Source: Bacteroidetes bacterium 2013_40CM_41_45
Lineage (GTDB): Bacteria; Bacteroidota; Bacteroidia; AKYH767-A; 2013-40CM-41-45
DNA: 64,000 bases
Reading direction: 5' to 3'
NCBI GenBank assembly: GCA_002215675.1
Contig: NGFH01000002.1
Coordinates: 719,887 to 783,886, forward strand
Under the pieces are notes generated by a model, which was not told where the DNA came from, ran no database searches, and worked only from the letters and a program-made list of their open reading frames with translations. Below are positions 46,501-62,705 of the stretch, piece by piece. The position numbers and the translations under genes were made by a program. The first letter of the stretch is position 1, and the number at the start of each line of letters is the position of its first letter.

Positions 46501-49500
46501 CATTATTTTTATACCATTCACACGAAAAATTACGGCTCATTCTTTAATAACTTTCCTCTGAGCAGTTCATCGGTTAATGCGTGCGGCAAATATTTAAATG
46601 CAATAGGAATAGGCACTATAGGAGGGACAGACGATACTCATTATCCTGTTTCCTCAAATATTTTCCCTTATGAATTCAGACCATCCCCGGTGCTGAATAG
46701 GTTCCACATCACGATTCCGACAGGATACAAGGTTAAAGCTGGTACCCAAAGATTAGGAAACCTTTTTGCTACGTGGGGGGCTTGCTATCCGTTTGCACAG
46801 GAAGTCAGCAGAAAATGGATAACGACTCAATTAACAGGTGATTTTTATGTATACCCTAATGCTATTGATGCAGGCAACAACATGGGACTCAATATCGCAA
46901 ATGAATGCGGTTACGACAATTATGAGTCAGGACCAATAATAAAGGGAGACGAAAACACTTACTTCAGTTTATTTATGGAACTTGAAGTTGAGGATTGCCC
47001 TAACACTCCTGCCCTTGTTGATATAAATTCTACAGACATTCAATTGGAATTTGCAGGCCATAATTGCCCACCCTCATCTCCTGTAACTGATCATATGTCG
47101 TGTACCAATTGTGACCAGCTTCAGAAACCGGCTCCCGTTCTTACCCTAAATGTTATAAGCAGCGTGTCACTGGTTACTACAACTGTATTTAAGGATACCA
47201 TCCGCATTACAAATCCTCCTATAAACCCCAACCTTATCCCTAATGGTCATGCCGCTGAAAATGTGTTTTTACATTTTCCTCATTCAGACAATGACTCCGT
47301 TCTAAATGTAAGCTGTATTTCAAGTTGTCCTTCAACTCCCCAGTTGGTATCCGGCTTCTGGAGGTTAGGAATGATTCCCGTTAATTCAGTTGTCGATTAT
47401 GAAATCACTTATCAGATTACCAATTGTGTAGGTACAAGCGGCAACCTTCCTATTTCATTTTATTATGGTTGGAATTGCTATGCATATCCTACCGATATTA
47501 ATGATCCTGCCCTATGCTCAAAAACATTATCCTATATGTATTACCAGGAAAGCCCGGCTAATGTTCTGAGTTCAATGAAAATAAACGATGTAATTGCAAA
47601 CAGCACGTTCCAATTGTGCCATGATGAGAAATATGAAGTCAAGATTGCTACTATTGAAATTGGGGGAGTAAATAATATTCGTGTTTCAGTAAGTCTTCCT
47701 GCGCATCTCGACTTTAGTACCATCCTGCCGGAGCTGAAATATTGCGATATCGCAGAAGATAGTTGTACAACTGTTGCCGTTGCCACGCCTTCAGGTTCTT
47801 TGTTCAGTTTCAATTTAAATCTTCCACCCGCTGCAAATGGCTATCTCTCTAACGGACATAAACTTATTTTAACTTTTTATGTAAGAGGCAAATGCGAATA
47901 TAATGGAGCGCCTCCCCAGGTAACAGTCAGAGCATCTCGTTATTGCGACAATGCAAATCCGCTGGCATTTGATTTGACTCAGCCGTGGACATTCTCAGGC
48001 GTTGATAATTGCTCTCCATTGTGCTGCTCCAGCTTTTCTGCTTCGGTTAGCGGCACTAATGTTTTATGTGCAGGCTCCTCTCACGGCTCTGCTACAGTTA
48101 GTGTGACCAACGGGAATCCGTCCTTCTTATATATTTGGAATACAGTTCCGCCCCAGATAACATCTACAGCTCTCAATTTAGCAGCAGGAACTTATACCTG
48201 CACCGTTACAGATTTTATTGGATGCACCGCTTCAGCATCTGTTACTATCACCCAACCGCCGGCAATCAGTATTAATATTAGTAGCGTTAATGTCACCTGT
48301 AATGGCGGCAGTAATGGAACAGCAACAGCTAATTCAAGCGGAGGAACAGGAGCGCACACTTATTTATGGAGCAATGCCCAGGCAAATTCAATTGCTACAG
48401 GGTTAGCACCGGGTATCTATACTGTTACCGTTACTGATGCCAATTCGTGTACCGCTACTGCATCGGTAACCATTACACAACCAGCAGTAATAAACGTTTC
48501 AATGTCTTCAACTCCGCGCTGCTATCAATTAAATAATGGAACAGCTACCGCAAATGTAACAGGGGGCACTTCACCGTATTTTTATTTATGGAATACCTCT
48601 CCTGTACAAACGACATCAACAGCTAATAATCTTACAGCAGGCACTTATACATGTACCATTACAGATAATCACGGATGTCAGCAACAGGGAACAGCAACAG
48701 TCTCTGTAAATTCTCAAATTATTCTTTCATCTCCCACAGACCCTGCGGCAATAATTCCGCCTACCTCAGCCGGAGGTAATGACGGAGCAATAAATCTTTC
48801 GGTCTCGGGCGGTACATCACCGTATACATATTTGTGGTCCACTACAGCCACAACCCAGGACATATTAAACTTAATTTCCGGAACCTATACCGTTACCGTT
48901 ACCGATGTTTATTTATGTACTGCAACTCAATCATATTTTGTTCCCGAACCGTCCAATGAATGTGATGCCGGCTTTGCTACCTACACCCAGGGGGGCTATG
49001 GTAATTGCGGATTTCCCGGCCAGTTTATGCAAAACAATTTTGGTAATGAATTTACAAGCGGATTAACCATTGGCTGTTCGGGAACCGGTCACTATCAATT
49101 GACTGCCGGCTGCTACCAGGCTGTACGGAATTTTCTCCCGTCGGGAACCAAGAATAACGGACCTCAAATATTGAATGCGAACTACACAAACCCCATTAAG
49201 CCCGGTTGTAATTTCGGCGGTAACTGCGCATGTACAACAAATGTTGCTTGTGTTCCGGCTAACCCCACCGTCTATTCCAATGTATTTGCAGGACAAGTTA
49301 TGACACTTACTCTGAATGTTGGGTTTGATGGTACAACAGGTTTTTCTACAAATACATTTCCGTTAAGCCAATTATATTATGTAGGCAGTGGTCAGTTTTA
49401 TGGATTAACGGTTGGTGACATATTAACAGAAGCAAATGCAAAATTGGGAGGATGTTCTACAACAGTATCTTTTACATACACCACCAGTGAACTAAATTCT

Positions 49501-51897
49501 GTTGTCGACTTAATAAATAAAAGCTGGGACAATGCTCAATGCCCCAATGGAAGCTGCGGTATTTTATCTTGTACCGCTTCGCAAAATAGTTTTTCTTTTT
49601 CCTCATCTGCTTCCGACCTCCAGGTCGCATGTATGCCATACAACCCAACCTGTGTTAACGGTTACTCCGCAAGTATTCTTACCAGTGTGCATGGTGGAAC
49701 ACCTCCCTATAGTTACCTCTGGAGCAATGGTGAAACAGGGGCTGATTTAATACATCTCTCTCCCGGAATTTATGCTGTTACAGTTACAGATGGTGACGCA
49801 AACACTGCGGTAAGATTTGCGTATGTTTATTCAGATGCATCCATGAATCAGCCGGCATATTTTTCAGAAAGCATAACAAACCTGACTGCTTACTTCACAG
49901 ATAACAGCATGGAAAGTTCGTCAGGCGCTACTCAAACCTGGCTGTGGAATTTTGGAGACCCTTCAAGCGGTACTAATACTTCTACACTTCAAAATCCTTC
50001 GCATACTTTTACCGGTGATGGAGCATATAATGTGTGCCTTACCGTATCGTACACAAGCAATTTGTCTTTATGCTCTGATACATATTGTAGCAGCGTTTGT
50101 ATTACTCCGCAGGTAACCGCTTCTCCCTCATCCGTTTCATTTTGCGATGGCGGCAATGCGTCATTAACTGCTGCTGTAAGTGGTTCAAATTCCTATTCTT
50201 ATCAATGGAAGAAAGATGGAAATGTAATTACGGGTGCAACCTCATCCGTTTACACCGCAACTACAGCAGGCAGCTATACTTGTGTTGTTTCTAATTCATG
50301 CGGCAGCAGCACTTCCAATGCTCTTATTGTGACTGTAAATTATTTACCTTCAGCAAGTATCTCTGCCAGTGATGCTACAACATTTTGTTCAGGCAATTCA
50401 GTCACGCTGAATGCAAATACCGGAGCAGGTTTAACCTATCAATGGAAATTAAACGGCAACACAATTTCAGGAGCAACCTCATCTTCTTATTCTACTTCAA
50501 GCACCGGAAATTATACATGCGTAGTAACAAACAACTGTGGCAGTGTAACTTCTAATTCAATTTCAATAACGGTAAATTCGCTACTCCCGGTAAGTGTAAG
50601 CATCTCTGCTTCTGCTACCACCATTTGCTCCGGAATCAATGTTACGTTTACGGCAACACCTGCTAACGGTGGAAGTTCACCATCGTATCAATGGAAACTC
50701 AACGGCAGCAATGTTGGAACGAATAGTTCTTATTCAAACAGCTCGCTGGCTAATTCGGATGTTGTAACATGCGTATTGACATCCAATATCACGCCTTGCG
50801 CAACAGGAAATCCTGCCACTTCAAATTCGGTTACTATGACTGTGAATCCTCTTCCTGGGGCCAATACGGGCAGCAACCAAAATGTTTGCTCCGGTGAAAC
50901 CATTTCTTTAGGGGCAGCTCCGGTTTCAGGAAATACATATTCGTGGTCACCCTCGACTCATTTAAGCAGCGCAACGGTTTCAAATCCTACCTTCACTTTT
51001 TCAACTGCGGGTACAACAAATTATACCTTAACCGAAACCATAACAGCAACTGGTTGTCAAAAATCTAATGGCGTAAGTGTAACCGTAATTTCGGGAGGCG
51101 GTAACCCGACCTTTACTTGCAACAGTACCAATCTTGTTGTTGCAACTCCGTATACTAATTGTGTTTCGCCCGGCAGCAACGATTATTTAATGATGAAGGT
51201 GAAAATAACACTTGGAGGCGGTTGCAGTGGAGCGCAGCGAAAACTTCAAACATTAAAATTCAGCGCATCATCGGCAACTTGCTCTAATATTGAAAATGCA
51301 AAACTTTGGTATTCGGAAAGCACCAACTCATTTTCAAATGCTCAAATTGTTTCGGGTTCGGGTACTATTACTTCAGTAAGCTGCACGGCAGACAATACGT
51401 GGAATGCCGGAACATTACAAGTTATGCAACCCGGTGATAATTATTTCTGGGTCACGTATAAAATACGGTCAACGGCAACCGCTGGCCAATCGGTGCAGGC
51501 ATCGCTTGTAAACGTTACTGTAGTAGCCAATGGTAATACAACGTGCTCAACATTCGGAGGTTCTACTTCTTCAAGAACTATTCAGTCATCCGGTTGCGGG
51601 AGTGTCCGCATAGATAATCAGGAAACGGATTTACATAGCATTACCATAGCTGTCTATCCTAATCCCTTCACCGACCAAACTACTTTCCATTTCGTTTCAG
51701 AAAAAGATGCGAAAATTATGTTGGAGCTGTTTGATATTTCGGGGCAAAAACTAAAAACAATATTTCACGACCAGGTAAAAGCAGGGGATATTAATGAAGT
51801 TGAATTATTTACATCGGGAATGGGTGCAGGAATATATTATTACCGCCTGAGCACAGAAGAAGAAATAGGTGTCGGGAAACTATTGATTGTTAAGTAA
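43582..51897 (+). CDS. Giant (2771-residue) SprB/PKD/Ig-repeat surface protein with T9SS type A tail
   Basis: A signal peptide ends near NSIAQ (residue 21). Residues 22-1475 are a long Cys-rich region without recognisable repeats. Four SprB-type repeats follow (about 1480-1790; TYLWSNAQANSIATGLAPG, YTVTVTDANSC). A further Cys-rich domain spans about 1790-2020, then another SprB-like repeat, a PKD domain (about 2100-2165; WLWNFGDPSSG) and three Ig-like repeats (about 2170-2420; YQWKKDGNVITGATSSVYTA). Near 2510-2670 is a domain with YFWVTYKIRSTATAGQ, and the last 80 residues are a T9SS type A tail (IAVYPNPFTDQTTF). It is probably an adhesin. The N-terminal 1450 residues have no assigned fold here. 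Confidence 0.88.
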   Translation: MKTKAFLLTLLNLVFLNSIAQNVTVNITSAGHDPEVCASSTFNVEIILSGTLNFSNFQFGIEDVSGLTFSNNPTSATIGPVSYKLYSQGNLNCTSSCTTSFSFNISYACSLIPQTNFTTGQVVSIAQHLIITDGLTPYSGNVSWTFNTNPLTQPQVTYDLDYYYLALQNFPAAVLSNKGRTEFRDIVYQNNGNSAFNGSLAFHDNFSCDKYTLTEIRLYDRIGATDVLITPAFTPGMSGTDHYFTYNDFFSAPIEAGHQLVIREVIHIDDCLDNCPANSNVSTFNISWGCAGNLCRHTTPFTSNVVRSLDRPKLTMYRMLPGPSGNLGNYGYWDQPNCTDGTIAWEYRIGNDGHDIAYDVVIPLDNPGNASSYLIDLPSVHLDQCPTCSLSIQENHSVILLSGPHIKCAENMATPISGINFHIDKLEAGKYVTLSFTTKYCCPGLSTGTDPNVYNLFNEPEKYFNTWRLYPVSKDECGVQTSFASDTPTTNTYVTGYNIGQNEQWHLRQTFDPTTTEMSGLICPNACDESNPVNFQITNSNFNAEGIQTGMYSKGIATMFCSSYNDNPALMAMGVRIKLVFTMGAALRLLPLTTSDIFIQNGATVWPPVTPLSSADSCNANGPTRTYEVIFDGAQLASALSLSGLDLKHFMNFFNGSVINFSLVACCCAADDNPTYSVKTYMEGLCPNCWIPFSEVGAVIHVHCPGCRTPGARTTSASLTRDVSSLGFPDSDNDGIKDTIIPIDTANYPAKYNLKYNRSIQGDKLVGIVNGEFFGGSAPACTTGTGMNYSTLQSKDCNSAAPPCTSTVTAPYVFSHLYLDQTIPFSGPIEFNLQLQSCTLTIKRSATEIYEYIFPSTRIDDINAAHTGSQFRFDVTPADVSPTFAFTPGETYRAVTTYITCSNYDPDSTSEASIYNKSRSEVFNAFYFSVMPLPPLAFPDYEQFDENFIEDPNNDCNGLCHNYIFQCSPVTCLHYFYTIHTKNYGSFFNNFPLSSSSVNACGKYLNAIGIGTIGGTDDTHYPVSSNIFPYEFRPSPVLNRFHITIPTGYKVKAGTQRLGNLFATWGACYPFAQEVSRKWITTQLTGDFYVYPNAIDAGNNMGLNIANECGYDNYESGPIIKGDENTYFSLFMELEVEDCPNTPALVDINSTDIQLEFAGHNCPPSSPVTDHMSCTNCDQLQKPAPVLTLNVISSVSLVTTTVFKDTIRITNPPINPNLIPNGHAAENVFLHFPHSDNDSVLNVSCISSCPSTPQLVSGFWRLGMIPVNSVVDYEITYQITNCVGTSGNLPISFYYGWNCYAYPTDINDPALCSKTLSYMYYQESPANVLSSMKINDVIANSTFQLCHDEKYEVKIATIEIGGVNNIRVSVSLPAHLDFSTILPELKYCDIAEDSCTTVAVATPSGSLFSFNLNLPPAANGYLSNGHKLILTFYVRGKCEYNGAPPQVTVRASRYCDNANPLAFDLTQPWTFSGVDNCSPLCCSSFSASVSGTNVLCAGSSHGSATVSVTNGNPSFLYIWNTVPPQITSTALNLAAGTYTCTVTDFIGCTASASVTITQPPAISINISSVNVTCNGGSNGTATANSSGGTGAHTYLWSNAQANSIATGLAPGIYTVTVTDANSCTATASVTITQPAVINVSMSSTPRCYQLNNGTATANVTGGTSPYFYLWNTSPVQTTSTANNLTAGTYTCTITDNHGCQQQGTATVSVNSQIILSSPTDPAAIIPPTSAGGNDGAINLSVSGGTSPYTYLWSTTATTQDILNLISGTYTVTVTDVYLCTATQSYFVPEPSNECDAGFATYTQGGYGNCGFPGQFMQNNFGNEFTSGLTIGCSGTGHYQLTAGCYQAVRNFLPSGTKNNGPQILNANYTNPIKPGCNFGGNCACTTNVACVPANPTVYSNVFAGQVMTLTLNVGFDGTTGFSTNTFPLSQLYYVGSGQFYGLTVGDILTEANAKLGGCSTTVSFTYTTSELNSVVDLINKSWDNAQCPNGSCGILSCTASQNSFSFSSSASDLQVACMPYNPTCVNGYSASILTSVHGGTPPYSYLWSNGETGADLIHLSPGIYAVTVTDGDANTAVRFAYVYSDASMNQPAYFSESITNLTAYFTDNSMESSSGATQTWLWNFGDPSSGTNTSTLQNPSHTFTGDGAYNVCLTVSYTSNLSLCSDTYCSSVCITPQVTASPSSVSFCDGGNASLTAAVSGSNSYSYQWKKDGNVITGATSSVYTATTAGSYTCVVSNSCGSSTSNALIVTVNYLPSASISASDATTFCSGNSVTLNANTGAGLTYQWKLNGNTISGATSSSYSTSSTGNYTCVVTNNCGSVTSNSISITVNSLLPVSVSISASATTICSGINVTFTATPANGGSSPSYQWKLNGSNVGTNSSYSNSSLANSDVVTCVLTSNITPCATGNPATSNSVTMTVNPLPGANTGSNQNVCSGETISLGAAPVSGNTYSWSPSTHLSSATVSNPTFTFSTAGTTNYTLTETITATGCQKSNGVSVTVISGGGNPTFTCNSTNLVVATPYTNCVSPGSNDYLMMKVKITLGGGCSGAQRKLQTLKFSASSATCSNIENAKLWYSESTNSFSNAQIVSGSGTITSVSCTADNTWNAGTLQVMQPGDNYFWVTYKIRSTATAGQSVQASLVNVTVVANGNTTCSTFGGSTSSRTIQSSGCGSVRIDNQETDLHSITIAVYPNPFTDQTTFHFVSEKDAKIMLELFDISGQKLKTIFHDQVKAGDINEVELFTSGMGAGIYYYRLSTEEEIGVGKLLIVK

Positions 51898-52275
51898 ACT
51901 GACGTTCATAAGTTCATACCTCGGGTGAACTCTGTATTCAATTATAATTGCCCAATTATCAATGGTTTCGGAAGAAAATAAAAGAGGAATTAACAATAAA
52001 AACCTTGTTAATTCCTCTTATTTCGGTAGCCCCTTCTGGTTTATTATCGAACCAGCTTAAAGAGGAATTCAAGCATTTATTCCACTTAAAAGAAGATTAC
52101 GCATAGATAACAGAGAATGAATCATTTTGCAAACGTTGCGGGAAGCCGGTTTCTACACCATCGAGAGGTCGAACTTTAAAGCTGATATTGAAGCAACTCT
52201 TGAATTTTGATTGTTCTAAAAGGAATTGCACCTTCTAATGTTATTTAGTAGTACAATTCAGAGGGAATATAAGCT
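51898..52275. other. Intergenic stretch with hairpin and possible gene remnant
   Basis: Apart from the terminator hairpin (see its own entry) I see no complete gene. A plus-strand frame ending near 52209 reads LREAGFYTIERSNFKADIEA then TLEF and stop, and could be the tail of a degraded gene, but there is no start or upstream frame to support it. Confidence 0.4.
51982..52019 (+). terminator. Perfect 15-bp inverted repeat, probable terminator
   Basis: AAGAGGAATTAACAA (51982-51996) and TTGTTAATTCCTCTT (52005-52019) pair perfectly around an 8-base loop, 85 bp after the giant gene. The downstream T-run is short (TTATTT), so termination is likely but not certain. Confidence 0.65.
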
Positions 52276-53433
52276 TCATGGTTTTGAAAACGGTCCGAAT
52301 AATTTCAACGGAAGCGCCGCCCTAACGGCAATAACTATTATGTCCTCATTCCTTGAACATTGCAATTTTTGCCTCAGTGAAGCCATAATTGTTTCGATAT
52401 AATCGACACTTACGTTCATTTGTTCAGCAATTTTTTCTTTTTGTATGTTTCTCACTAGAGCTTGAAATACTTTAATTTCATCTAAAAGCAAATGTTCATG
52501 ACCAAAATCTTCCAAGTTTAAACCGTTTTCATCCATTTGGTACTTGAATGAAACATCCTGCAAATTGTCGCCAGTAACATCTACAAAATATCCAGACACT
52601 CCAATAATTCTGTTGGAGTGGTCTCTAAGTGTACTTTCATAAACAAGTATATCAGCGACTCTATCAACCATAATTTCCTTTTCAAAAACATGTAATCTTG
52701 ATAGCTCGTCCCCGGTCATTATTTTTCTATCCCCTTCCTGAAAAAATTTTGCTAAAGAACGCCAAGGCATTTCATAATCTGTTTTTCCTATCAAGGATTG
52801 AGGAGAATCCAAACCAGCAGCTTTTGCATATAGTTCACTTGCTTTCATATACCTACCAAAACGATCTTTTTCCCAAAAATAGAGACCCAATAAACTTGGA
52901 TTAATTGAAGGTTTTAAAGGTGCGGTAGGAGAGTTCAAATATTCAGCGGTATTATCAATCCCTCTTAAAATACTTTCAATGAATAATTCGGTATCTAAAT
53001 TGAATTGGCTAATGCCAAAAATTGTAGCTGAATTAATTGTCGATACTTGTGGATTCGACCAAGTATTAAGGACTTTAAACGGAACATATTTTTTATTATC
53101 AGTTTTTGTAGCCACAAGAATTGGAGGTGAGCTTTTCCGATTCTCTATCCACCAGGATATTTCATAGTCAAAATAATCCTCACTGCCTAACTTGGTTTCT
53201 ATTGCTTGAGGGCTACAAACTATGCAAAAAGAATTGGCGAGAGATAATTCCTTGTCAATGTAATTTTTTTTCCAGTCAGAACCACTCGCACCACCAGAAT
53301 CCAATTGTGATGTCAACATAACAACTTCGTCATTTACTTTATGGCTACGACCAGTCAAGTTCTTATGAATCCACTTAGCCAAATCTGCTCCGTCAGATTG
53401 TCGATAGCATATAAATATCGAGTGTTCTTTCAT
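52276..53433 (-). CDS. TIR-PAS-HTH (LuxR-like) three-domain protein
   Basis: The 385-residue protein has three parts. Residues 1-165 are TIR-like: SIFICYRQSDGADLAKWIHKN, then CIVCSPQAIET and a candidate catalytic Glu91 in DYEISWWIENR. Residues 180-288 are a clear PAS domain (GLYFWEKDRFGRYMKASELY ... GVSGYFVDVTG). Residues 320-372 are a LuxR-like helix-turn-helix (VFQALVRNIQKEKIAEQMNV). TIR domains hydrolyse NAD or act as adaptors, PAS domains sense signals, and the HTH suggests DNA binding. The architecture would couple sensing, NAD depletion and transcription. Its start overlaps the upstream gene by 4 bp. The function is inferred. Confidence 0.8.
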   Translation of the reverse strand: MKEHSIFICYRQSDGADLAKWIHKNLTGRSHKVNDEVVMLTSQLDSGGASGSDWKKNYIDKELSLANSFCIVCSPQAIETKLGSEDYFDYEISWWIENRKSSPPILVATKTDNKKYVPFKVLNTWSNPQVSTINSATIFGISQFNLDTELFIESILRGIDNTAEYLNSPTAPLKPSINPSLLGLYFWEKDRFGRYMKASELYAKAAGLDSPQSLIGKTDYEMPWRSLAKFFQEGDRKIMTGDELSRLHVFEKEIMVDRVADILVYESTLRDHSNRIIGVSGYFVDVTGDNLQDVSFKYQMDENGLNLEDFGHEHLLLDEIKVFQALVRNIQKEKIAEQMNVSVDYIETIMASLRQKLQCSRNEDIIVIAVRAALPLKLFGPFSKP

Positions 53434-54713
53434 TTCTTAGCCTGCATTTCATTTAATTCATGTTCAAGTCGTATTCTTTCTTTTTCAATTGCACGATCAA
53501 ATGACTGATATCTTTCTATTCCTAATTTTTTTAGATATGAAATGGTCGGCTTTGCAGCAATAAGCATCTCTTTAATCAATTCATCAGCATTGTATTTCGA
53601 TAACACAATGCGATATACTTCGCTTAAAGCAAGTCCTGTAACTTTCATAAAGGAATGAACTATCCTTTCAATATCAGGTAGACTTCTTGCAATTGTAGAT
53701 TTAATATAAAATTCTGAAGCATCTGTTTTCATCTGTTCGTCAAATTCTTCCCAAAGCCAATAACCCAATGCTTGAAATTGCGATGAGTGAATTACTTCGT
53801 CCCTTGCATGTGAATCACAAATTATTCGCACTGACCCAGAGAGTTCTTTATTAGCGGCAAACTTGCTAAGTTCAACTGAAATTCTTGTTTCAGTTACAAT
53901 TCCATTTATGATTGTAATGAGATCTCTGTAAAGCGGATCAGTCTCAACTGAACGTAGATTTTCTAATCTTCGCAAAAATAATGGCGGTTGTTTACCAGGT
54001 AGATAAGGAAGACCAAAATGTTTTTCTAATTCGGTCAAATACGTATTTGCTTGCTCTGCATGAAAACCTTCATCCGTAGCTGTTTTGTATAAATCTTGCT
54101 TTGGTTGAGATGGGATTTGAAATGGAATTCTCCTGAGACATACAATTGCGGGAATTACCAAACAATGTTCGACTTCAATTGTATCTCTAAGAAAAGAACA
54201 AAATTGGGCGGCACCAAAATTTTGCGATTCTATTTCAGAAGAAAAACTCGATGTCAGTAATACATTTTCTGGATAGTAAACTTCATTGATTTCTAAAGAC
54301 GGCAACGGAAATTCTTGTTTAAGTGCAGACGGTTTCTTTTCAGTATTTTTATACGTGAGATAATGCGGATATCCGTCTTTCTTGGCAACGTAGACCCATG
54401 CCTGTTTTCCCGAGGTCAGTACCTCTTTTACTCTCACATAATCCCCTACTTCATAGCTATCTGACAAAAGCAATTCTTCTACTGTAACTTCAAATACGAT
54501 TCCCTCAACGCAATCATCATTATTTTCGGAATGTATAGCAATTGGGTGGAATTTTTGTTCGCTTTTTAATAGGACCGACTCATCTTTGATTTCAAGAAAA
54601 GAAAGTTTATAGCCCTTTAAAGTATCTTTTGTGCCTGTTAAAATTCTACCGAAAGATTCTAATTGAACCTTTTCTTTTTGAAGCGTACCGTATGAGAAAA
54701 GATGTTCATTCAT
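53430..54713 (-). CDS. Gamma-glutamylcyclotransferase-like domain fused to an AurF-type diiron oxygenase
   Basis: The 427-residue protein has an N-terminal GGCT/AIG2-like domain (about 1-110; LFSYGTLQKEKVQLESFGRI, DSYEVGDYVRVKEV). The C-terminal part (about 160-350) has the seven ligands of AurF-type N-oxygenases: E182, E215, H218, E275, H302, E306 and H309. From E215 onward their spacing (ExxH, 57, 27, 4, 3) equals that I recall for AurF (E136, H139, E196, H223, E227, H230). The first Glu is 33 residues ahead of E215, against 35 in AurF. AurF-type enzymes oxidise arylamines. GGCT domains release pyroglutamate from gamma-glutamyl compounds. No biosynthetic cluster is visible around it, so the substrate is unknown. 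Confidence 0.82.
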   Translation of the reverse strand: MNEHLFSYGTLQKEKVQLESFGRILTGTKDTLKGYKLSFLEIKDESVLLKSEQKFHPIAIHSENNDDCVEGIVFEVTVEELLLSDSYEVGDYVRVKEVLTSGKQAWVYVAKKDGYPHYLTYKNTEKKPSALKQEFPLPSLEINEVYYPENVLLTSSFSSEIESQNFGAAQFCSFLRDTIEVEHCLVIPAIVCLRRIPFQIPSQPKQDLYKTATDEGFHAEQANTYLTELEKHFGLPYLPGKQPPLFLRRLENLRSVETDPLYRDLITIINGIVTETRISVELSKFAANKELSGSVRIICDSHARDEVIHSSQFQALGYWLWEEFDEQMKTDASEFYIKSTIARSLPDIERIVHSFMKVTGLALSEVYRIVLSKYNADELIKEMLIAAKPTISYLKKLGIERYQSFDRAIEKERIRLEHELNEMQAKK

Positions 54714-54824: not shown

Positions 54825-56291
54825 TTAATTTTTCCATATCTCCCTATACTTGGGCAGTAGGGTGTTATTGCTGCGTTGGTAGTACTGCTCAGCCTTTTTA
54901 ATATCTCCTTTTAAAAACAAAATGTATCCGTAATGATAAAGCTCCAGTTCAGAACTTGGAATATAATCCAATGTTTTGTTTAGCACATCCTCAAATTTTG
55001 TATTCATAGCATGACCTTTCAGAATGGATAAGTATTCTGCACATATTTCAAGATCAAAAATTTCTCTGTTAATCAAACGGTCGAAACAAGCGAGTGTTGA
55101 TTCTAGATTGTTCTCTACGAAATATAGTTTTGTCATGGCATGATTGAGATAGAAATCTCCTGGAAATTTTAAAAGCGCTTTATCTAAACATTCTCTTTGT
55201 TCCTTTTTCATATTGAGGGTATCCAAAATTTCATTGAATACTAAAAAATGCTGAGGCAGAAATTCAGTCATATGCTTTTGATTGCTCATAAGATTTTTGC
55301 ACTCTTCCGTAGCGGAACTTAGCTGATTTAGCTGGAGATACGTTGAAATCCTATTTAATTTTGTAAGAGGAAGAAATTCCATATTTTTTTCAGAGTTGAA
55401 TAAATTACCCGACTTTTTTTTCGATACTTTATCTCCCTCAATAGCTTCAGTGATACGAACAGTTTTATCGTAAGCTGAAAGTGCACCTTCAAAATCTTTA
55501 ACATCATATAAGACACTTGCAAGCAGTCTCCAACCACGTGGATCGTTATTGTAAGTGTCTGTATAATTCAATAAAATCGATTTTGCCTTCGAGTTTAATC
55601 CTGCTTTTGCATATTCTGCTCCCAGTTGCAGTGTAAGTGTAGGACAGTAGATTTCCAGATGTTCGCATTCCTTAATAAACAATCCTAGACGTTCTGTTGT
55701 TCCCGGAAATTTCTGTTCGAATCTTGTCTGCATAACATCGAATTCTCTTAGGAGAATAGATTTATCAATATCTTGCAGGTTGAACTTAGAAAGCTCCTCT
55801 TCAAAATCTTTTTGAGTGCATTCAGGATACAGTGATTGGTATTTAACATCCCAAAACTTACACAACCCAGAAATGCCTAAATGATACGTCCTGTCATTAT
55901 CGTATAGGTTGGTTAGATTACTTATTGAGAAATCAAAGTATCTGAACGAATTATGATTTTCAAAAAGCTCCGGTGCAGAATGTGTTACTGTTTTATCTCC
56001 CACCAAGCAAATCGAAATTTGCTTTGCTCCATTCTTCCAATCATCATTTTGATTTAACAGTCGCCATTCATCTCTTACATATTTCGAGTAGCGGCTATTC
56101 GAGCTGTCAAAAAGAATAACGCCTTTACATTCCTGTAATGCTTGTCCAATTTCCTTATTAAAATCTTTCCCATAGCTTACGGAATAAGCATCTCTCCATA
56201 AAATACAACCGTTGCGGACAAGGTCGGAATAAATTTTCACGGCTATTCTCATATCCTTCCAAGAATAACTCATAAAGATTTTATCATTCAT
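54825..56291 (-). CDS. TIR-domain protein with TPR repeats
   Basis: The 488-residue protein begins NDKIFMSYSWKDMRIAVKIY, a classic TIR start. It has CILWRDAYSVSYGKDF, then the candidate catalytic Glu75 in YSKYVRDEWRLL. The TIR part spans about 1-140. Residues about 220-488 contain helix-turn-helix pairs of TPR type (KSILLNYTDTYNNDPRGWRL, KDFEGALSAYDKTVRITEA, DIKKAEQYYQRS). TIR-TPR proteins are often effector modules of bacterial defence systems, with TPRs binding partners or signals. It overlaps the preceding secreted-protein gene by 8 bp. A 111-bp gap separates it from the following GGCT-AurF gene. Confidence 0.85.
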   Translation of the reverse strand: MNDKIFMSYSWKDMRIAVKIYSDLVRNGCILWRDAYSVSYGKDFNKEIGQALQECKGVILFDSSNSRYSKYVRDEWRLLNQNDDWKNGAKQISICLVGDKTVTHSAPELFENHNSFRYFDFSISNLTNLYDNDRTYHLGISGLCKFWDVKYQSLYPECTQKDFEEELSKFNLQDIDKSILLREFDVMQTRFEQKFPGTTERLGLFIKECEHLEIYCPTLTLQLGAEYAKAGLNSKAKSILLNYTDTYNNDPRGWRLLASVLYDVKDFEGALSAYDKTVRITEAIEGDKVSKKKSGNLFNSEKNMEFLPLTKLNRISTYLQLNQLSSATEECKNLMSNQKHMTEFLPQHFLVFNEILDTLNMKKEQRECLDKALLKFPGDFYLNHAMTKLYFVENNLESTLACFDRLINREIFDLEICAEYLSILKGHAMNTKFEDVLNKTLDYIPSSELELYHYGYILFLKGDIKKAEQYYQRSNNTLLPKYREIWKN

Positions 56292-57591
56292 TTCCCAACC
56301 TTTTATTCGGTGGAATTATTCCATTGTTAACCGGATTGCTTTTATCAGCACTTGGACGTATTTCTTTAACATCATTTATTTCCACCATGAACCTTTTCCA
56401 CCTCGTCGGATTATTCAATTTTACATACCTGAAAAAAGCAGCATAGCGCATTGTCGTGATGCAAGAACTAAACACCACTGGATTGAACTGAAATATTTTT
56501 TGATTTATATCACGCAACTGTTTGGATTCACACAAGCGCAATTCAATTTTAGAGTCCGGAGCAGCAAACTCTAAATCATCCCATACATAAGAGAGTAAGA
56601 TTGAAAATAGCTCTGGATATTTTTGCGATAATGTATTTAGGGATTTATATACATCCGTAGGAGTCCAAGAATAAATACCTGTCCTTGTAAGGTTACAAAT
56701 AAAAGTGAAGTCGGGATCAAATAAAAATGTTTTATAGATAGAATCATTACTAAATGTTGTATCATTTTTCATTCGAGAGGCAACATCAATCAGACCGTAA
56801 ATGTCGTTAGTCGTATCAGCAATTTCTGAAGTAAGCAGGTAATAAGGCTCCCCCGTGATATAAAAGTTATTTTTAGCTACACCAAATTTTACCTCTTGTC
56901 CCCAATCTGTTAATACATATGAATTAGTTATTGTGTTCGGGTCGGTAGAAATGGAAAGCTGCTCTTTTAATTCTTGGTATAAATCGGCCGTACTATAAAT
57001 GTTCTGATACGCTCTTTTTAATCCTACTTCACTGTCAGCCATCAGAAAATTACCATTTGTATCCCTCGGTAATTCAGCCAATATAGAGCCTCCAATTTCT
57101 GTGAACAGTAAATCTGCCTGAAACATTCTTAAACCAAGCAGAGTGCTGTCAAAAGCAGGATGATACCTATACGTTCCCAGGTTTGAAGGATTGTATATAG
57201 AAAATACTGCGTTGTTTGTATCATTGGCATATTTTGCAATTGGAACCAATTGCCAGTCGGGGAGATAAACGGAATATGAGTAATCATTGCCGGTACCGAT
57301 AGATATTTTTAATCTATCCCCATCTTTTTTAAGGGCATCATATTTTAGATTTATCACACTTGTTGCTATGGCATTATCGGGTGTAGCTACTTGCTCGAAA
57401 GAAATTCCTCCAACACCCGCGTGAAATGATACTTTCCCTACAGCGGCCTTTACCAATAAACTACTTCTTTTGATTCCAACGGAAGATTTGAATTCACTTG
57501 CACCTAAATAAAAAGTGCTTACTTGAGTAAATGCAAGCTCACTCCATAACAAATAAAAAAGTAGTACCGTGTACTTTAGTAAAGTTTTCAT
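56284..57591 (-). CDS. Exported protein of unknown function in the TIR/caspase operon
   Basis: From MKTLLKYTVLLFYLLWSELAFTQ the product has 435 residues with a good signal peptide. It looks mostly beta-rich early on (VKAAVGKVSFHAGVGGISFE, SIGTGNDYSYSVYLPDW). In the middle lies RYHPAFDSTLLGLRMFQADLLF, a segment that reads like a conserved family block, but I cannot name the family. The C-terminal half is helical and ends in a polar tail (NPVNNGIIPPNKRLGNE). It stands between the caspase and TIR-TPR genes and overlaps the latter by 8 bp. As the only exported member of the set, it may sense envelope events, but this is speculation. Confidence 0.7.
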   Translation of the reverse strand: MKTLLKYTVLLFYLLWSELAFTQVSTFYLGASEFKSSVGIKRSSLLVKAAVGKVSFHAGVGGISFEQVATPDNAIATSVINLKYDALKKDGDRLKISIGTGNDYSYSVYLPDWQLVPIAKYANDTNNAVFSIYNPSNLGTYRYHPAFDSTLLGLRMFQADLLFTEIGGSILAELPRDTNGNFLMADSEVGLKRAYQNIYSTADLYQELKEQLSISTDPNTITNSYVLTDWGQEVKFGVAKNNFYITGEPYYLLTSEIADTTNDIYGLIDVASRMKNDTTFSNDSIYKTFLFDPDFTFICNLTRTGIYSWTPTDVYKSLNTLSQKYPELFSILLSYVWDDLEFAAPDSKIELRLCESKQLRDINQKIFQFNPVVFSSCITTMRYAAFFRYVKLNNPTRWKRFMVEINDVKEIRPSADKSNPVNNGIIPPNKRLGNE

Positions 57592-57618
57592 GTTAACAGA
57601 TTTCATAAGTTAAAAAAA

Positions 57619-58590
57619 TTATATTTTCCTTTCTTTTACCAATCTCCAATAATGATGGCCAAGCGTAGTTAACTTGCAGGATTTTGATTCCATTGCTGCG
57701 AAATACATAAACGGAGCGTCTACAGGAATAATTAAACCAATACTTTGAAGTTTTTGAAGGTCTTTAAATATGGCTACTTTCTCGGCAATTGCCACCGGTT
57801 CAACTAATTCATGTTTTACTTCCTTTGAGTTGGTGTCTTCAAATGAGGGGTTCAGGGGAAACTCCTTGTCAGGTACTGGAAAATATGTAATTATTTTCCG
57901 TAATACCTCCTTTGATGTCTGGGGAATGACTTCACGAAGTGAAATAAATCTAGTGATGTTTGTTTTGAATACAGGTCGCTGTCCCCATTCTCCGAGCGAT
58001 TGATCAATGTAAGCATAAACACTGCCTGGAGTTATGTGCCCTCTTAAATCTGCCGCTCCTCCTTTTAATGCATCGAGAAGAAGGCTTGTAAAAACTCCTT
58101 GACCATTTATTTCTTTTGCCGGTTCATTATCCCTGCTGGCAGAAAGTATAGTTACTCCCTGATGAAGAAAAGAAGATATACCTCCTGTCAGGTTCGGAGA
58201 ACCCATTGCTCCGGAGTGACAACAATCCAAGATAATAATTCTGTTTTGTGCTTTTGATTTATTAGCAATCTCCAGTATCTCATCCATCGATACGCCTTCA
58301 TCATATTCTTTCATATCTGGAGTCACTAAGTATCCACCACCATGCTCATTAAAAAAGCCGTGACCACTGAAATAAAAAAGTGTATAAGGAGTATCTCCTT
58401 TAAAGAGTTCAATTATTAATTTTTTAAGCCTTGATTTTGTTAGCACGTCCTTTTCAAGATGCACTTGAAAATTGGGAGAACCGTCTGCATTTAATTCCAT
58501 AACCTTTGCAAATTCCTCAGCATCGTTTACAGCTCCCTGCAAAGGAGAAAAAGGATATTTATTAATTCCTATAACCAAGGCTTTTCGCAT
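57619..58590 (-). CDS. Caspase-family (C14-like) peptidase
   Basis: The 323-residue protein has a p20-like catalytic domain (about 1-215). It begins KALVIGINKYPFSPLQGAVND. The catalytic His is H77 in LFYFSGHGFF and the catalytic Cys is C124 in ILDCCHSGAMG. The segment GVTILSASRDNEPAKE follows, as in other bacterial caspase-like proteases. Residues about 255-323 form a C-terminal module, probably a winged helix (LQKLQSIGLIIPVD ... CKLTTLGHHYWRL). Such proteases can cleave pore-forming effectors or other targets in programmed cell death. A TIR-like gene ends 10 bp upstream, and the exported-protein gene follows after 27 bp. Confidence 0.9.
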   Translation of the reverse strand: MRKALVIGINKYPFSPLQGAVNDAEEFAKVMELNADGSPNFQVHLEKDVLTKSRLKKLIIELFKGDTPYTLFYFSGHGFFNEHGGGYLVTPDMKEYDEGVSMDEILEIANKSKAQNRIIILDCCHSGAMGSPNLTGGISSFLHQGVTILSASRDNEPAKEINGQGVFTSLLLDALKGGAADLRGHITPGSVYAYIDQSLGEWGQRPVFKTNITRFISLREVIPQTSKEVLRKIITYFPVPDKEFPLNPSFEDTNSKEVKHELVEPVAIAEKVAIFKDLQKLQSIGLIIPVDAPFMYFAAMESKSCKLTTLGHHYWRLVKERKI

Positions 58591-58600
58591 GGTAGTATCG

Positions 58601-59011
58601 TTATTTATTTTTTCCTTCTTTCATACATTGATCAATATAAGCAGCTATTTTCTCCCAGCTCCATGCTACTATCCGGGTTCTTGATAAGCCGTCTGGCAGA
58701 ATAGTACTGCTATCTGCACCATCGACATAAACTCCAAAAATCGGTATGCTATTCCTCTTGGCAAAAGCGATTTCTTTTTCCACTCCAGTCGCAATACATG
58801 TATCATTACCTACTAGGACAATTAATATATTACATTTCTTAATTTTATCCTCAATAAGTTTTTCCCATTCCCTTTGAGGCAGATGATTCTTTGATGACCA
58901 ATCTTCAATGCTGAACGGTGTTTTTGAATTCTTTGCCTGCCCGGCAAAAAAATCTTTTTGAATTTTGTTATTATCAAAATCAAAACTTATGAAAGTACGT
59001 GGGTCACTCAT
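58601..59011 (-). CDS. MTH538/ThsB-like TIR-domain protein
   Basis: The 136-residue protein is the stand-alone TIR-like type of the MTH538 family, to which ThsB of Thoeris systems belongs. The signs are RTFISFDFDNNKIQKDFFAG at the start, FSIEDWSSKNHLPQREWEKLIEDKI, ILIVLVGNDTCIATGVEKEIAFAK with candidate catalytic Glu78 or Glu80, and IPIFGVYVDG near the end. ThsB-type proteins convert NAD into a signalling molecule. Its start overlaps the upstream gene by 4 bp, so the two are coupled. No ThsA-like partner is present here. Partners would have to be the caspase and other TIR genes. Confidence 0.85.
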   Translation of the reverse strand: MSDPRTFISFDFDNNKIQKDFFAGQAKNSKTPFSIEDWSSKNHLPQREWEKLIEDKIKKCNILIVLVGNDTCIATGVEKEIAFAKRNSIPIFGVYVDGADSSTILPDGLSRTRIVAWSWEKIAAYIDQCMKEGKNK

Positions 59012-59805: not shown

Positions 59806-59881
59806 ATATTTTATTTTAAATGGTTAAAGATTATGCACGAGAATCTGACTGCAAAAATTTCTATTCAGAAGGTTTTTATCC

Positions 59882-59899
59882 ATACCTATAGATAGGTAT
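59882..59899. promoter_or_regulatory. NarL-type 7-2-7 inverted heptamer (perfect)
   Basis: TACCTAT-AG-ATAGGTA (59883-59898) is an inverted repeat of heptamers fitting the NarL consensus TACYYMT in the 7-2-7 arrangement, extended to 18 bp by flanking A and T. It lies 77 bp upstream of the leftward operon and 103 bp before the rightward start codon. The NarL-type response regulator at 62097-62705 is the natural candidate to bind it. Confidence 0.65.
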
Positions 59900-59925
59900 T
59901 TATTTCAGGTGAATAAAGTTTTAAA

Positions 59926-59941
59926 TACCTATGGGTCGGTA
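59926..59941. promoter_or_regulatory. Second, degenerate NarL-type 7-2-7 site
   Basis: TACCTAT-GG-GTCGGTA has one consensus heptamer and one with two mismatches in the same 7-2-7 frame. Its centre is 43 bp from that of the perfect site, about four helical turns, and it abuts the -33 TTG (59942-59944), a position suited to activation of the rightward promoter. Confidence 0.5.
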
Positions 59942-59973
59942 TTGGTATGCGCTTTCAGAAGATGGTATGTTTG
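59942..59973 (+). promoter_or_regulatory. Promoter of the small Cys-containing protein gene
   Basis: TTG at 59942-59944 is followed after 21 bases by TATGTTTG (59966-59973), matching TAnnTTTG. The start would be near 59980, about 22 bases before the ATG at 60002. The ATG at 59909 lies upstream of this promoter and is therefore rejected as the start. Confidence 0.65.
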
Positions 59974-60001: not shown

Positions 60002-60568
60002 ATGAAACAAACAATCATCAAACCAGAAAATGAACTTATTTCAGAATCAAAGGAATCTGAAAGTGAGAATCCCAACAGGCAAGTCACAGAAATAAAAAAG
60101 GGTGCTTTTCAATATTTGGAATCCCTTCCAAGACCCGGCATGCCTGTGAACACACTGCTAAGGGACAGGGATCCTTCACAGCGAATTAGTATGGATATAG
60201 CGCACCAATTTACTGACCAATTCAGGTCGTCTGCTGCAGGTTCACCCATTGATATTCCATTATGCTGGAGCTTCGATAAGGATGCCTTAATTAAACTGCT
60301 TGGAATAACCTCTTATGAACACTATTCCGAAGTGAACGGTGTACGTTTTTATGCGGGCGTAAATGAATCTGGCGTTTTAACGCTGATTGCAGTGTCAACA
60401 ACGGAAGGAACTAGGGGAGGTTGCAGTGATTGTAGAAATGATCTGACCGAAGACGATAAGTATCCTTATTATGATTACGCAGACCCATGTCCAACCAACT
60501 GCAGTGAAACAGGAAACTTAAAAGCAGATGCCGGAGGAGAAGTATTGAGGACATTCCAAAAGGTCTAA
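60002..60568 (+). CDS. Small cytosolic protein with Cys-rich C-terminus, unknown function
   Basis: From MKQTIIKPENELISESKESE the product has 188 residues. The first 40 residues are acidic and Lys-rich. The middle has FSFDKDAL-type mixed alpha/beta (IDIPLCWSFDKDALIKLLGI, GVRFYAGVNESGVLTLIAVS). The C-terminus holds GGCSDCRND, then YPYYDYADPCPTNCSETGNL, with four Cys in two CxxC/CxxxC-like pairs that could bind metal. I do not recognise a family. It is framed by its own promoter and a strong terminator, so it is probably an abundant monocistronic product. It shares a direction with the sensor kinase genes and could be a co-regulated accessory. Confidence 0.65.
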   Translation: MKQTIIKPENELISESKESESENPNRQVTEIKKGAFQYLESLPRPGMPVNTLLRDRDPSQRISMDIAHQFTDQFRSSAAGSPIDIPLCWSFDKDALIKLLGITSYEHYSEVNGVRFYAGVNESGVLTLIAVSTTEGTRGGCSDCRNDLTEDDKYPYYDYADPCPTNCSETGNLKADAGGEVLRTFQKV

Positions 60569-60679: not shown

Positions 60680-61336
60680 ATGCCCATGCATTTCGTTTTC
60701 ATAAAGCTTTCTCAAGCAACTGTTTTATTTCCTGTTCTCCTTGGCGTAATTAACTTTAAAAAATTAAATAAACCATTTAGAATTTTACTCTTTTTCTTTA
60801 TTCTATCAATTTTATTTGAGATACAGGCAAGTGTGCTAAAAACGATTTATCACAATAACATGCCTGGGTTACACTTATTCACGGTTTGTGAATTTATTTT
60901 TTTATCGTTGGTTTATTATTATCATTTTTCTAAAAATTCTGTTCTGTCCCGGTTTATAATTCTTAACACATGCCTATTCCTTTTAGCTGCATCTTTTGAT
61001 GCTTTTATAATAAACGGGATATTGGAACCTAACAACCTGAGTCGTACATATTCATCAATATCGTTGGTGACAATGTCTTTGATCTTCTTCTACAGTTTCT
61101 TTAAAAATGATTACGAATTTTATAGCTGGCAATATCCTATGTTTTGGTTTAATACGGGTGTCCTGATTTATTTTGCATTGAATCTGTTTTACTTTATGCT
61201 TAACAATTACCTGGTCGAGCACGCATATTCCATTGCGTATAACAGTATGAGAGTTCACGCAGCTATAAATATTATTTCAAATTTGTTGTATGCAAAATCC
61301 TTCTTATGCTTCTCGAAATCAGTAGTGAGATATTGA
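60680..61336 (+). CDS. Polytopic membrane protein upstream of the histidine kinase
   Basis: The 218-residue protein has about seven hydrophobic segments (for example FRILLFFFILSILFEI, FIILNTCLFLLAASFDAF, MFWFNTGVLIYFALNLFYFM) and no soluble domain. I do not recognise a named family. Its 3' end overlaps the histidine kinase gene by 31 bp in another frame, so they are coupled. The kinase itself has only one membrane span and no sensing domain, so this protein is a plausible sensory partner, which is inference. Confidence 0.75.
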   Translation: MPMHFVFIKLSQATVLFPVLLGVINFKKLNKPFRILLFFFILSILFEIQASVLKTIYHNNMPGLHLFTVCEFIFLSLVYYYHFSKNSVLSRFIILNTCLFLLAASFDAFIINGILEPNNLSRTYSSISLVTMSLIFFYSFFKNDYEFYSWQYPMFWFNTGVLIYFALNLFYFMLNNYLVEHAYSIAYNSMRVHAAINIISNLLYAKSFLCFSKSVVRY

Positions 61337-62100
61337 TTTACTACTTAGCCGGTACGCTTTTTATTTTTCTGCTTATAACCACTGTCATTATCTATATATT
61401 CCTTCATGAGAAGAAGGTAAATCTGTATCATCGACGTTTGCAGCAGGGAGAAATAAATAAAAAGCAATCTGTTTTTGCAGCTCTTCAGGAAGGAGAGGAA
61501 AATGAACGCAAAAGGCTGGCAGAAGAATTACATGATGGAATTGGCGCTAAACTGTCCGGCCTTAAAATGTACCTTGAATATCTTAAATTAAAAAATAATA
61601 CAGATGACGATAAGAATATAATCCAAAAGGTTTTTGGCGGAATGGATGAAATAATCAATGAGCTCAGGGAAATCTCTCATGGCCTTCAACCTGCTTTATT
61701 TATCGAAAAGGCCTTAGCACAACTAGTGTTTGACTATATCGAACAACTTAATTCGAAAGGGTATTGCAATTACGAGCTTTTCTGTGATACACCTAATTTA
61801 AAAATAGATTTACCACTAAAATCGCATTGCTACAGGATACTCACCGAGCTATTGCATAACATACATAAACACTCTAAGGCAACCTCAGCGCTGATTCAGA
61901 TTATTGTAGTAGAAGACAAATTACAGCTAATTGTTGAGGACAATGGAATTGGTTTTAATAAAAACCAGCCTGAAGCCAAGGGAACAGGGCTCTTGAATAT
62001 TCATAACCGAGTAGACATAAATAAGGGAACTTTAAATATTGATTCTTCGTCTTCCGGAACAACAATTATCATTGAATTACCTTTACATACTGACGCATGA
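61306..62100 (+). CDS. Sensor histidine kinase, NarL/HisKA_3 type
   Basis: The 264-residue protein has one membrane span (about 10-33) and no periplasmic or PAS domain. A short coiled coil leads to the HisKA_3 dimerisation box ERKRLAEELHDGIGAKLSG (phosphorylated His76). The HATPase domain shows the N-box CYRILTELLHNIHKHSKAT and the G-box VEDNGIGFN ... GTGLLNIHNRV. It overlaps the preceding membrane-protein gene by 31 bp and the response regulator gene by 4 bp, so the three form a unit. The signal is unknown. Confidence 0.93.
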   Translation: MLLEISSEILIYYLAGTLFIFLLITTVIIYIFLHEKKVNLYHRRLQQGEINKKQSVFAALQEGEENERKRLAEELHDGIGAKLSGLKMYLEYLKLKNNTDDDKNIIQKVFGGMDEIINELREISHGLQPALFIEKALAQLVFDYIEQLNSKGYCNYELFCDTPNLKIDLPLKSHCYRILTELLHNIHKHSKATSALIQIIVVEDKLQLIVEDNGIGFNKNQPEAKGTGLLNIHNRVDINKGTLNIDSSSSGTTIIIELPLHTDA

Positions 62101-62705
62101 AAGATAGAATCACTATTTACCTCGCCGATGACCACCAAATAGTAATTGATGGATTGCAACTATTAATCAACAATGAACCTGATCTGCTTATTGTTGGAAC
62201 TTCAAATAATGGAACGAAAGCATACGAAGAACTTCTGGATAAAAAACCTGATATTGCTTTGATAGATTGGCGTATGCCTGGCTTGAATGGGCTTCAATTG
62301 ATATTGAATTTAAAAAATAAAATTTCTACCCAGTTCATAATTCTATCGATGCATAATGACAAACGCTATATTTCCGATGCAAAAAATAATGATGCCTTCG
62401 GGTATTTATTGAAAAATGTCGGGAAGGATGAACTATTGCGCTGTATACATAGCGTTATAAATAACAAAAAATATTTTCCAGCTGAGGATTATGTTTTGCA
62501 AGAAAAGGTAAGAAAATTAACTCCACGTGAATTGGAAATTCTAAAGCTTGTAATAAATGAAAACACAACACAGCAAATTGCTGAACTTTTGAATTTGAGT
62601 CATTTCACCGTAGAAACCCATCGCAAAAATATCTCCAGTAAAACCAATACTAAAACTGTTATTGGCCTCGTAAAATATGCGCTGGATAATGGTATAGAAT
62701 ATTGA
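62097..62705 (+). CDS. NarL/LuxR-type response regulator
   Basis: The 202-residue protein has a receiver domain (1-120) with the acidic pair Asp11-Asp12 in LADDHQIVIDGL and the phospho-acceptor Asp57 in LIDWRMPGLNG. The conserved Lys lies in YLLKNVGKDEL. The C-terminal LuxR-type helix-turn-helix (about 138-200) has LTPRELEILKLVINENTTQQIAELLNLSHFTVETHRKNI. Proteins of this group bind TACYYMT heptamers, and two such arrangements lie upstream at 59882-59941. It is coupled by a 4-bp overlap to the histidine kinase gene. Confidence 0.94.
   Translation: MKDRITIYLADDHQIVIDGLQLLINNEPDLLIVGTSNNGTKAYEELLDKKPDIALIDWRMPGLNGLQLILNLKNKISTQFIILSMHNDKRYISDAKNNDAFGYLLKNVGKDELLRCIHSVINNKKYFPAEDYVLQEKVRKLTPRELEILKLVINENTTQQIAELLNLSHFTVETHRKNISSKTNTKTVIGLVKYALDNGIEY

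Follow-up and report, generated by a model that had tools for sequence, protein, structure and literature searches.

The gap between positions 59806 and 60001 of a 64,000-nucleotide stretch of Bacteroidetes bacterium 2013_40CM_41_45 (contig NGFH01000002.1; this whole stretch is the window) is a divergent promoter of 196 bp. On its left starts a seven-gene set that includes TIR and caspase-like proteins (start 59805), and on its right a four-gene sensor set that includes a NarL-type response regulator (start 60002). Judging from sequence, we consider it likely, with a probability of about 0.72, that this region is a mirror-image promoter that can be activated both ways, and that the local NarL-type regulator activates its own operon together with the TIR/caspase operon. 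The proposal is carried by two inverted-heptamer sites, each with an outward −7-like box at a fixed distance. This promoter arrangement is kept in distant relatives, which suggests that this kind of bacterial immunity may be switchable by a sensed signal.

Paired sites and their outward boxes

Both sites have the 7-2-7 layout, two inverted heptamers around a 2-bp gap. Site 1, TACCTAT-AG-ATAGGTA, is a perfect repeat with TAC first and GTA last; it reads AAA-TACCTATCTATAGGTA-T towards the caspase operon, whose promoter it positions. Site 2, TACCTAT-GG-GTCGGTA, has the same layout with two departures, and reads AAA-TACC-N8-GGTA-T towards the sensor operon, whose promoter it positions in the same way. 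The initial annotation of this DNA had proposed such a pair, and the two sites are indeed present, 43 bp apart start to start; the sequence that it gave for site 1 was right, but the start was placed at 59882, one base early. The promoter elements that it described beside site 2 were also found: TTG, possibly a −33 element, and the box TATGTTTG. The outward box lies exactly 23 nt past site 1 and 24 nt past site 2 (Table 1). We presume that both boxes are of the Bacteroidota −7 type, TAnnTTTG.

Contigs were searched with the small protein encoded first in the sensor operon, using short peptide patterns that may miss some relatives. Four orthologous loci were recovered, in Taibaiella koreensis (L006), a Bacteroidia metagenome-assembled genome (MAG; L007), Taibaiella lutea (L008) and a Bacteroidetes MAG (L009). 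All four keep the gene order small protein, seven-transmembrane (7TM) protein, kinase and NarL-type regulator, and all four have a divergent caspase gene, whose product belongs to the same subfamily as the window caspase and is 54–62% identical to it. Because the five cassette-caspase loci were chosen by the small protein, the shared cassette is partly a result of selection; neither the caspase nor the sites played a part in finding them. Two TACC-N8-GGTA sites occur in the divergent promoter at each of the four loci, five of five with the window, so the heptamers stood up to the comparison of orthologous promoters proposed in the initial annotation. A TIR gene lies near the caspase in four of the five loci: in the window, L007 and L009 it shares the caspase operon, and in L006 it stands behind the regulator gene; in L008 none was seen near the caspase by eye.

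The distance rule was derived from these five loci, and two further cassettes were found by protein profiles without use of the motif. L142, recovered through the 7TM profile, carries a pair of sites with a box exactly 23 nt from each; its divergent gene encodes not a caspase but a 267-aa secreted-type protein without a Pfam match. L091 came from the small-protein profile. One of its sites is exact and faces the divergent side, 23 nt from its box; the other, on the cassette side, is degenerate (TACA-N8-GGTA), and a box-like TATATTG stands where the rule predicts one. The leftward promoters, those directed away from the cassette, carry NAnnTTTG at an offset of 23 nt in 7/7 cases and at no other offset within 0–69. 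In the rightward promoters it lies 23 nt past the site in five of six and 24 nt past it in the sixth, that of the window. The position of the box is thus fixed, at 23 nt for 12 of the 13 oriented sites and at 24 for one, and all 13 sites fit A[AT]A-TACC-N8-GGTA-T. When the 80 nt beyond each site were shuffled letter by letter in 20,000 permutations, no offset was shared by more than three loci leftward or two rightward. The 23-nt spacer itself is just 33% identical (ungapped), and the two sites stand at varying distances from each other (40, 43, 48, 60 and 65 bp in the five loci). A gapped comparison of the inter-site DNA (identity 0.77 versus 0.68 when shuffled) was dropped, as leaving out the gaps inflates the value.

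Given a fixed outward box on both sides, a variable distance between the sites and a diverged spacer, the region looks like two independent promoters back to back, each with its own predicted activator site. Judging from the position of the leftward box, the first leftward gene of L008 and L009 would start at an ATG further in than the one that opens the longest frame. With a −7-like box at a fixed distance from each site, the case for a predicted link to the caspase operon equals that for the sensor operon. In the initial annotation, the two-component system was tied to the small Cys-containing gene and, more tentatively, to the TIR/caspase operon. Both ties are supported, at the level of predicted control, by the fixed outward boxes and by the retention in 4/4 loci of the site pair, the cassette order and the divergent caspase.

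The placement and conservation of the sites are not due to chance. No promoter with two TACC-N8-GGTA sites arose in 20,000 dinucleotide shuffles of each of the five divergent promoters, and 10 of the 13 such sites in the 113,914 bases of the five loci lie inside those promoters. Site 1 is the only match to exact TACCTAT-NN-ATAGGTA in its own genome (3.38 Mb). Counts of the heptamer pattern, in the window or the genome, were not significant and were dropped as evidence. A loose two-site pattern, searched in 395 genomes, was also set aside, being mildly above its control and having many matches within genes or repeats (by eye). Our samples of the class Bacteroidia comprise 345–395 genomes from a larger group. 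A generic sigma-70 scan returned 48 sites versus 41.2 in shuffles, which is about equal.

Proposed activation and competing explanations

The presence of sites follows the recognition helix of the cassette regulator. In the seven site-bearing cassettes the helix reads (F/Y)T(V/I)(E/N)THRK. Among 15 cassettes with more distant regulators, none has a strict site with a box; this count includes L148 with 397 bp upstream and excludes L143, whose promoter lies beyond the contig, and L147, whose frames are broken. Twelve of the 15 helices were aligned, and 10 read (R/K)T(V/I)(E/D)G, the other two being those of L156 (RTVDNH) and L157.

We propose that the small protein or the 7TM part would sense a signal, upon which the HisKA_3 kinase would phosphorylate the adjacent NarL-type regulator. 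A phosphorylated dimer at site 2 would activate the sensor operon (autoregulation), and one at site 1 would activate the seven-gene TIR/caspase operon. Bound 23–24 nt upstream of the −7 box and centred at an estimated −42, the dimer may touch RNA polymerase as a class II activator. The outcome would be a signal-inducible, self-amplifying supply of the caspase/TIR effector set, which is probably a defence of the abortive-infection type. The kinase-regulator relay looks functional because H76, N185 and the Gly residues of the kinase ATP site are kept in 5/5 orthologues, and Asp11, Asp12, Asp57, Ser84 and Lys106 of the regulator are invariant in the five orthologous sets.

In Escherichia coli, NarL activates from 7-2-7 sites at −40 to −49 (napF) and −38 to −47 (yeaR), and its dimers bind the engineered site TACCCCTAAAGGGGTA (available excerpt of PMC4549865). 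On account of their layout and estimated centre, we liken the window sites to the activating sites at napF and yeaR. Shared features are the TACC...GGTA inverted heptamers, the 2-bp gap, a GerE-domain regulator expected to act as a dimer and a centre near −42 to −45. The window differs in its Bacteroidota boxes, in having two mirror-image sites in one divergent promoter and in its TIR/caspase cargo; as far as sequence tells, the signal is not nitrate.

Several observations weigh against this proposal. With up to 3 mismatches allowed, the 4 motif matches of the window are not significant: shuffles average 2.16, and 18 in 100 hold at least as many. With up to 2 mismatches, the genome holds 10 places versus 20 for the reversed pattern, and the loosest two-site search returned 38 of 395 genomes versus 24 with the reversed pattern (table count), a mild enrichment only. 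Site 2 of the window is the least perfect of the sites, with its TCGGTA half and 24-nt box offset, and the centre of about −42 is an estimate that holds if the box is centred at −7. Among the 15 distant cassettes, L144 matches a looser pattern (TAC-N10-GTA with a box), L156 has a lone strict site, and L157, the nearest to an exception, has the helix RTVETHRKH yet no site. TACC sites were not found in the loci where a caspase of this subfamily lies beside a TPR-containing kinase (see below). Furthermore, the site grammar is class-wide and stands beside orphan NarL-type regulators whose recognition helix is the same. The genome of the window encodes one of them, which could share the window sites; site plus box occurs at 4 places in that genome versus 2 for the control.

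The grammar AWATACC-N8-GGTAT-N23-AnnTTTG was found in 120 of 395 Bacteroidia genomes, with 0 in every row of the reversed-pattern control. Among the matches listed (30 loci, L160–L189), the downstream genes encode FeoA (L175), FeoA-FeoB (L184), DUF4856 (L170, L174, L178), DUF6662 (L164) and small Cys/Lys-rich proteins (L161, L162, L165, L167, by eye), and further downstream genes have no obvious iron link. A NarL-type regulator is encoded in the flank of 5 of these 30 loci, and all ten regulator helices from nine loci (five grammar and four loose-pair loci) read T(V/I)xTHRKN. Several spacers hold TTTAGAATnATTCTAAAT, which by its resemblance we take to be a Fur-like box. The grammar resembles an iron regulon of NarL type under the control of orphan regulators, one of which scores below the cut-off for a receiver domain. 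In the genome of the window, 13 of the 16 GerE matches are readable, and two have the THRKN helix: the window regulator and the orphan C7:142797 (HTVTTHRKNI). Two of the four site-plus-box places are those of the window; the others lie beside the orphan (C7:142675-142720) and upstream of a lipoprotein-FeoA-FeoB set (C6:62752-62797), and fit a looser spacer of 22 nt.

These data raise the question whether the window sites are bound mainly by that orphan, which would place both operons in an iron/heme-type regulon. In favour are its standing as the sole other THRKN helix of the genome, the location of the two outside places and the recurrence of the grammar at iron-type genes. We nevertheless regard it as unlikely: the sites track the local cassette regulator, being present in 7/7 close cassettes and 0/15 distant ones, as an orphan-driven motif would not, and the paired sites share inner bases within several loci (TACCTAT/TACCTAT, TACCTAG/TACCTAG, TACCTAC/TACCTAC, TACCAAG/TACCAAG), as if tuned to the local protein. 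The local regulator is favoured because the sites follow the type of regulator in the local cassette.

It is improbable that the local regulator instead represses both operons until a signal relieves the repression. NarL does repress frdA from a 7-2-7 site near the start (excerpt of PMC4549865), and an effector operon of the TIR/caspase kind would be dangerous if left on, but the window sites lie upstream of the promoter elements rather than over the −7 box or the start, in a geometry that matches activating NarL sites. Slightly less probable again is an arrangement in which both sites serve the sensor operon only and the leftward operon is transcribed from an unrelated promoter. In its favour, all seven leftward promoters have A or G in place of the initial T of TAnnTTTG, yet the single shared offset of the leftward box in 7/7 exceeds anything in the 20,000 permutations, none of which passed three loci. 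Moreover, the spacing between the sites would be expected to be kept if the two acted jointly on one promoter, and it is not. As for chance palindromes in AT-rich DNA, the non-significant motif count of the window fits them, but conservation and fixed geometry in independent loci already refute this explanation, and we give it next to no weight.

If two-way activation by the local regulator is correct, the kinase would respond to a signal from outside or from the membrane by raising both the caspase/TIR effector set and its own sensor. Such a controller of an immune operon would take its cue from the membrane or the cell exterior, in contrast to the DNA-damage controllers already known. The grammar, combined with a THRKN helix match, may also serve to predict NarL-type regulons throughout Bacteroidia. 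Narrow literature searches for the promoter grammar found no paper, and an earlier description may exist.

Separately, pairs of TACC-N8-GGTA sites were seen near secreted HmuY-like genes at L010, L011, L028, L029 and L039, most with a Fur-like TTTAGAATnATTCTAAAT inverted repeat between them; the HmuY assignment is by Pfam over the cut-off in L028, under it in L029 and by eye in the rest. CdhR, the LuxR-type hmu regulator of Porphyromonas gingivalis, is a possible precedent.

The two operons

The features of the promoter and of both operons are collected in Table 1. The NarL-type kinase and regulator are encoded downstream of site 2 where the initial annotation had placed them. With its receiver and GerE domains and its phospho-acceptor Asp and Lys, the regulator qualifies as a NarL/FixJ response regulator. 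The small protein has no match in Pfam, NCBIfam or PADLOC, and its predicted structure, with a mean predicted local distance difference test (pLDDT) score of 36.8, is useless. No relatives of it were found in plasmids, and none of the regulator were confirmed in viral contigs. The small-protein family is recurrent and precedes 7TM-kinase-NarL-type regulator genes (window 60002-60568, L142–L159); its members often end in CPPxC...LNS, sometimes appear by eye to be lipoproteins, and had no Pfam or NCBIfam match among those scanned. The 7TM profile matched in 44 of 345 genomes, and 18 regions were read.

Table 1. Promoter elements and genes on either side of the divergent promoter (window coordinates)
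Feature	Position	Strand	Remarks
Site 1	59883..59898	.	TACCTATAGATAGGTA; inverted heptamers, 7-2-7; caspase-operon side
Site 2	59926..59941	.	TACCTATGGGTCGGTA; sensor-operon side
Leftward −7-like box	59852..59859	-	AATTTTTG; 23 nt past site 1
TTG	59942..59944	+	possible −33 element (presumed role), abuts site 2
Rightward −7-like box	59966..59973	+	TATGTTTG; 24 nt past site 2
Small protein, 188 aa	60002..60568	+	CPTNC near C end; first gene of recurrent sensor cassette
Multi-span membrane protein	60680..61336	+	weak 7TMR-DISM_7TM match, below cut-off
HisKA_3 histidine kinase	61306..62100	+	HisKA_3 and HATPase, His kept
NarL-type response regulator	62097..62705	+	receiver and GerE domains; recognition helix FTVETHRKNI
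First leftward gene, 265 aa	59008..59805	-	no match in Pfam, PADLOC or NCBIfam
ThsB-like TIR protein	58601..59011	-	second leftward gene
Caspase-like protease	57619..58590	-	Peptidase_C14; partial NCBIfam caspase_w_EACC1 match, below cut-off
440-aa protein	56284..57606	-	N-terminal hydrophobic stretch (by eye); no match in Pfam, PADLOC or NCBIfam
TIR-TPR protein	54825..56291	-	fifth leftward gene
GGACT domain fused to AurF-like domain	53430..54713	-	AurF-like part below cut-off
TIR-PAS-GerE protein	52276..53433	-	last leftward gene; PAS above cut-off, TIR and GerE below theirs
Terminator-like hairpin	51982..52019	-	15-pair stem; after last leftward gene

The leftward genes overlap or are 10–12 bp apart, except at a single 111-bp gap. 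The region has 7 terminator-like sites versus 7.5 expected, and the hairpin behind the last gene has by far the longest stem. The caspase scores 104.3 bits against the NCBIfam model for EACC1-associated caspases (NF047832), short of its curated cut-off of 140. Among the other gene products of this operon, one joins a GGACT domain to an AurF-like oxygenase domain (the latter below cut-off), and the TIR-PAS-GerE protein may be a second DNA-binding regulator, with a TIR domain (TIR and GerE below cut-off). The operon is adjoined by a gene for a 2771-aa repetitive secreted-type protein (43582-51897) with a C-terminal sorting-like end (by eye).

Related systems and caspase neighbourhoods

Type IV Thoeris combines a TIR protein that makes N7-cADPR with a caspase-like protease (as described in the available part of PMC12847820). 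The leftward operon resembles it in having a ThsB-like TIR gene beside a caspase-like protease gene in one operon. It differs in lying behind the promoter of a two-component system and in its additional TIR-TPR, GGACT-AurF and TIR-PAS-GerE genes; the likeness is drawn from the genes, and we do not file the operon there. Dedicated regulators of immune operons, CapW/BrxR, CapH+CapP and CapK+CapS, are DNA-damage-responsive repressor systems (excerpt of PMC13373217). The window regulator is likewise encoded beside an immune operon, but comes with a membrane-linked histidine kinase and is an apparent activator. The Bacteroidia promoters with the same grammar (feoAB, DUF4856) share the site, the spacing and nearby T(V/I)xTHRKN regulators; unlike that of the window, they are mostly single-site, often have a Fur-like box in the spacer and go with orphan regulators.

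A profile of the caspase matched 25 places in 18 of 395 genomes, one being that of the window itself. Seventeen matches are near full-length, in 16 regions (L074–L089), and seven are partial (L062–L066, L070 and L071; L090 is a longer L062 region). In 9 of the 16 regions, which were chosen by the caspase alone and are not independent, some being close relatives or from the same genome, a kinase and a NarL-type regulator are encoded upstream on the same strand, directly before the caspase except in L074, where two genes intervene. We count this in favour of the proposed activation. The other seven lack such a pair, among them L075, whose contig starts 0.8 kb before the caspase, and none was seen in the stretch examined around the seven partial matches. 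The eight kinases scanned (that of L084 was not) have TPR repeats before HisKA_3 and no 7TM partner gene. A different palindrome is common to L074 and L076 only, two regions of one genus.

We would give even odds to a broader history, in which the four-gene cassette recurrent in Bacteroidia (small CPxxC-type protein, 7TM protein, kinase and regulator) is an envelope-signal controller of neighbouring gene sets, one branch of which captured the TIR/caspase operon by way of a mirror-image promoter, and two-component control of this caspase subfamily arose at least twice, once with a divergent 7TM cassette and once with a co-directional TPR-kinase. Literature searches that paired two-component systems with caspase or anti-phage terms, covering few subscription papers, found none. 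The available parts of two papers on conflict systems (PMC7159879, PMC8195603) mention no such pairing, and one of the two, in the part available, reports that no histidine kinase was found among vWA-associated effectors. In L086 (5218-13079), two kinase-regulator pairs, each following a small gene, flank the caspase and may be a duplicated sensor unit.
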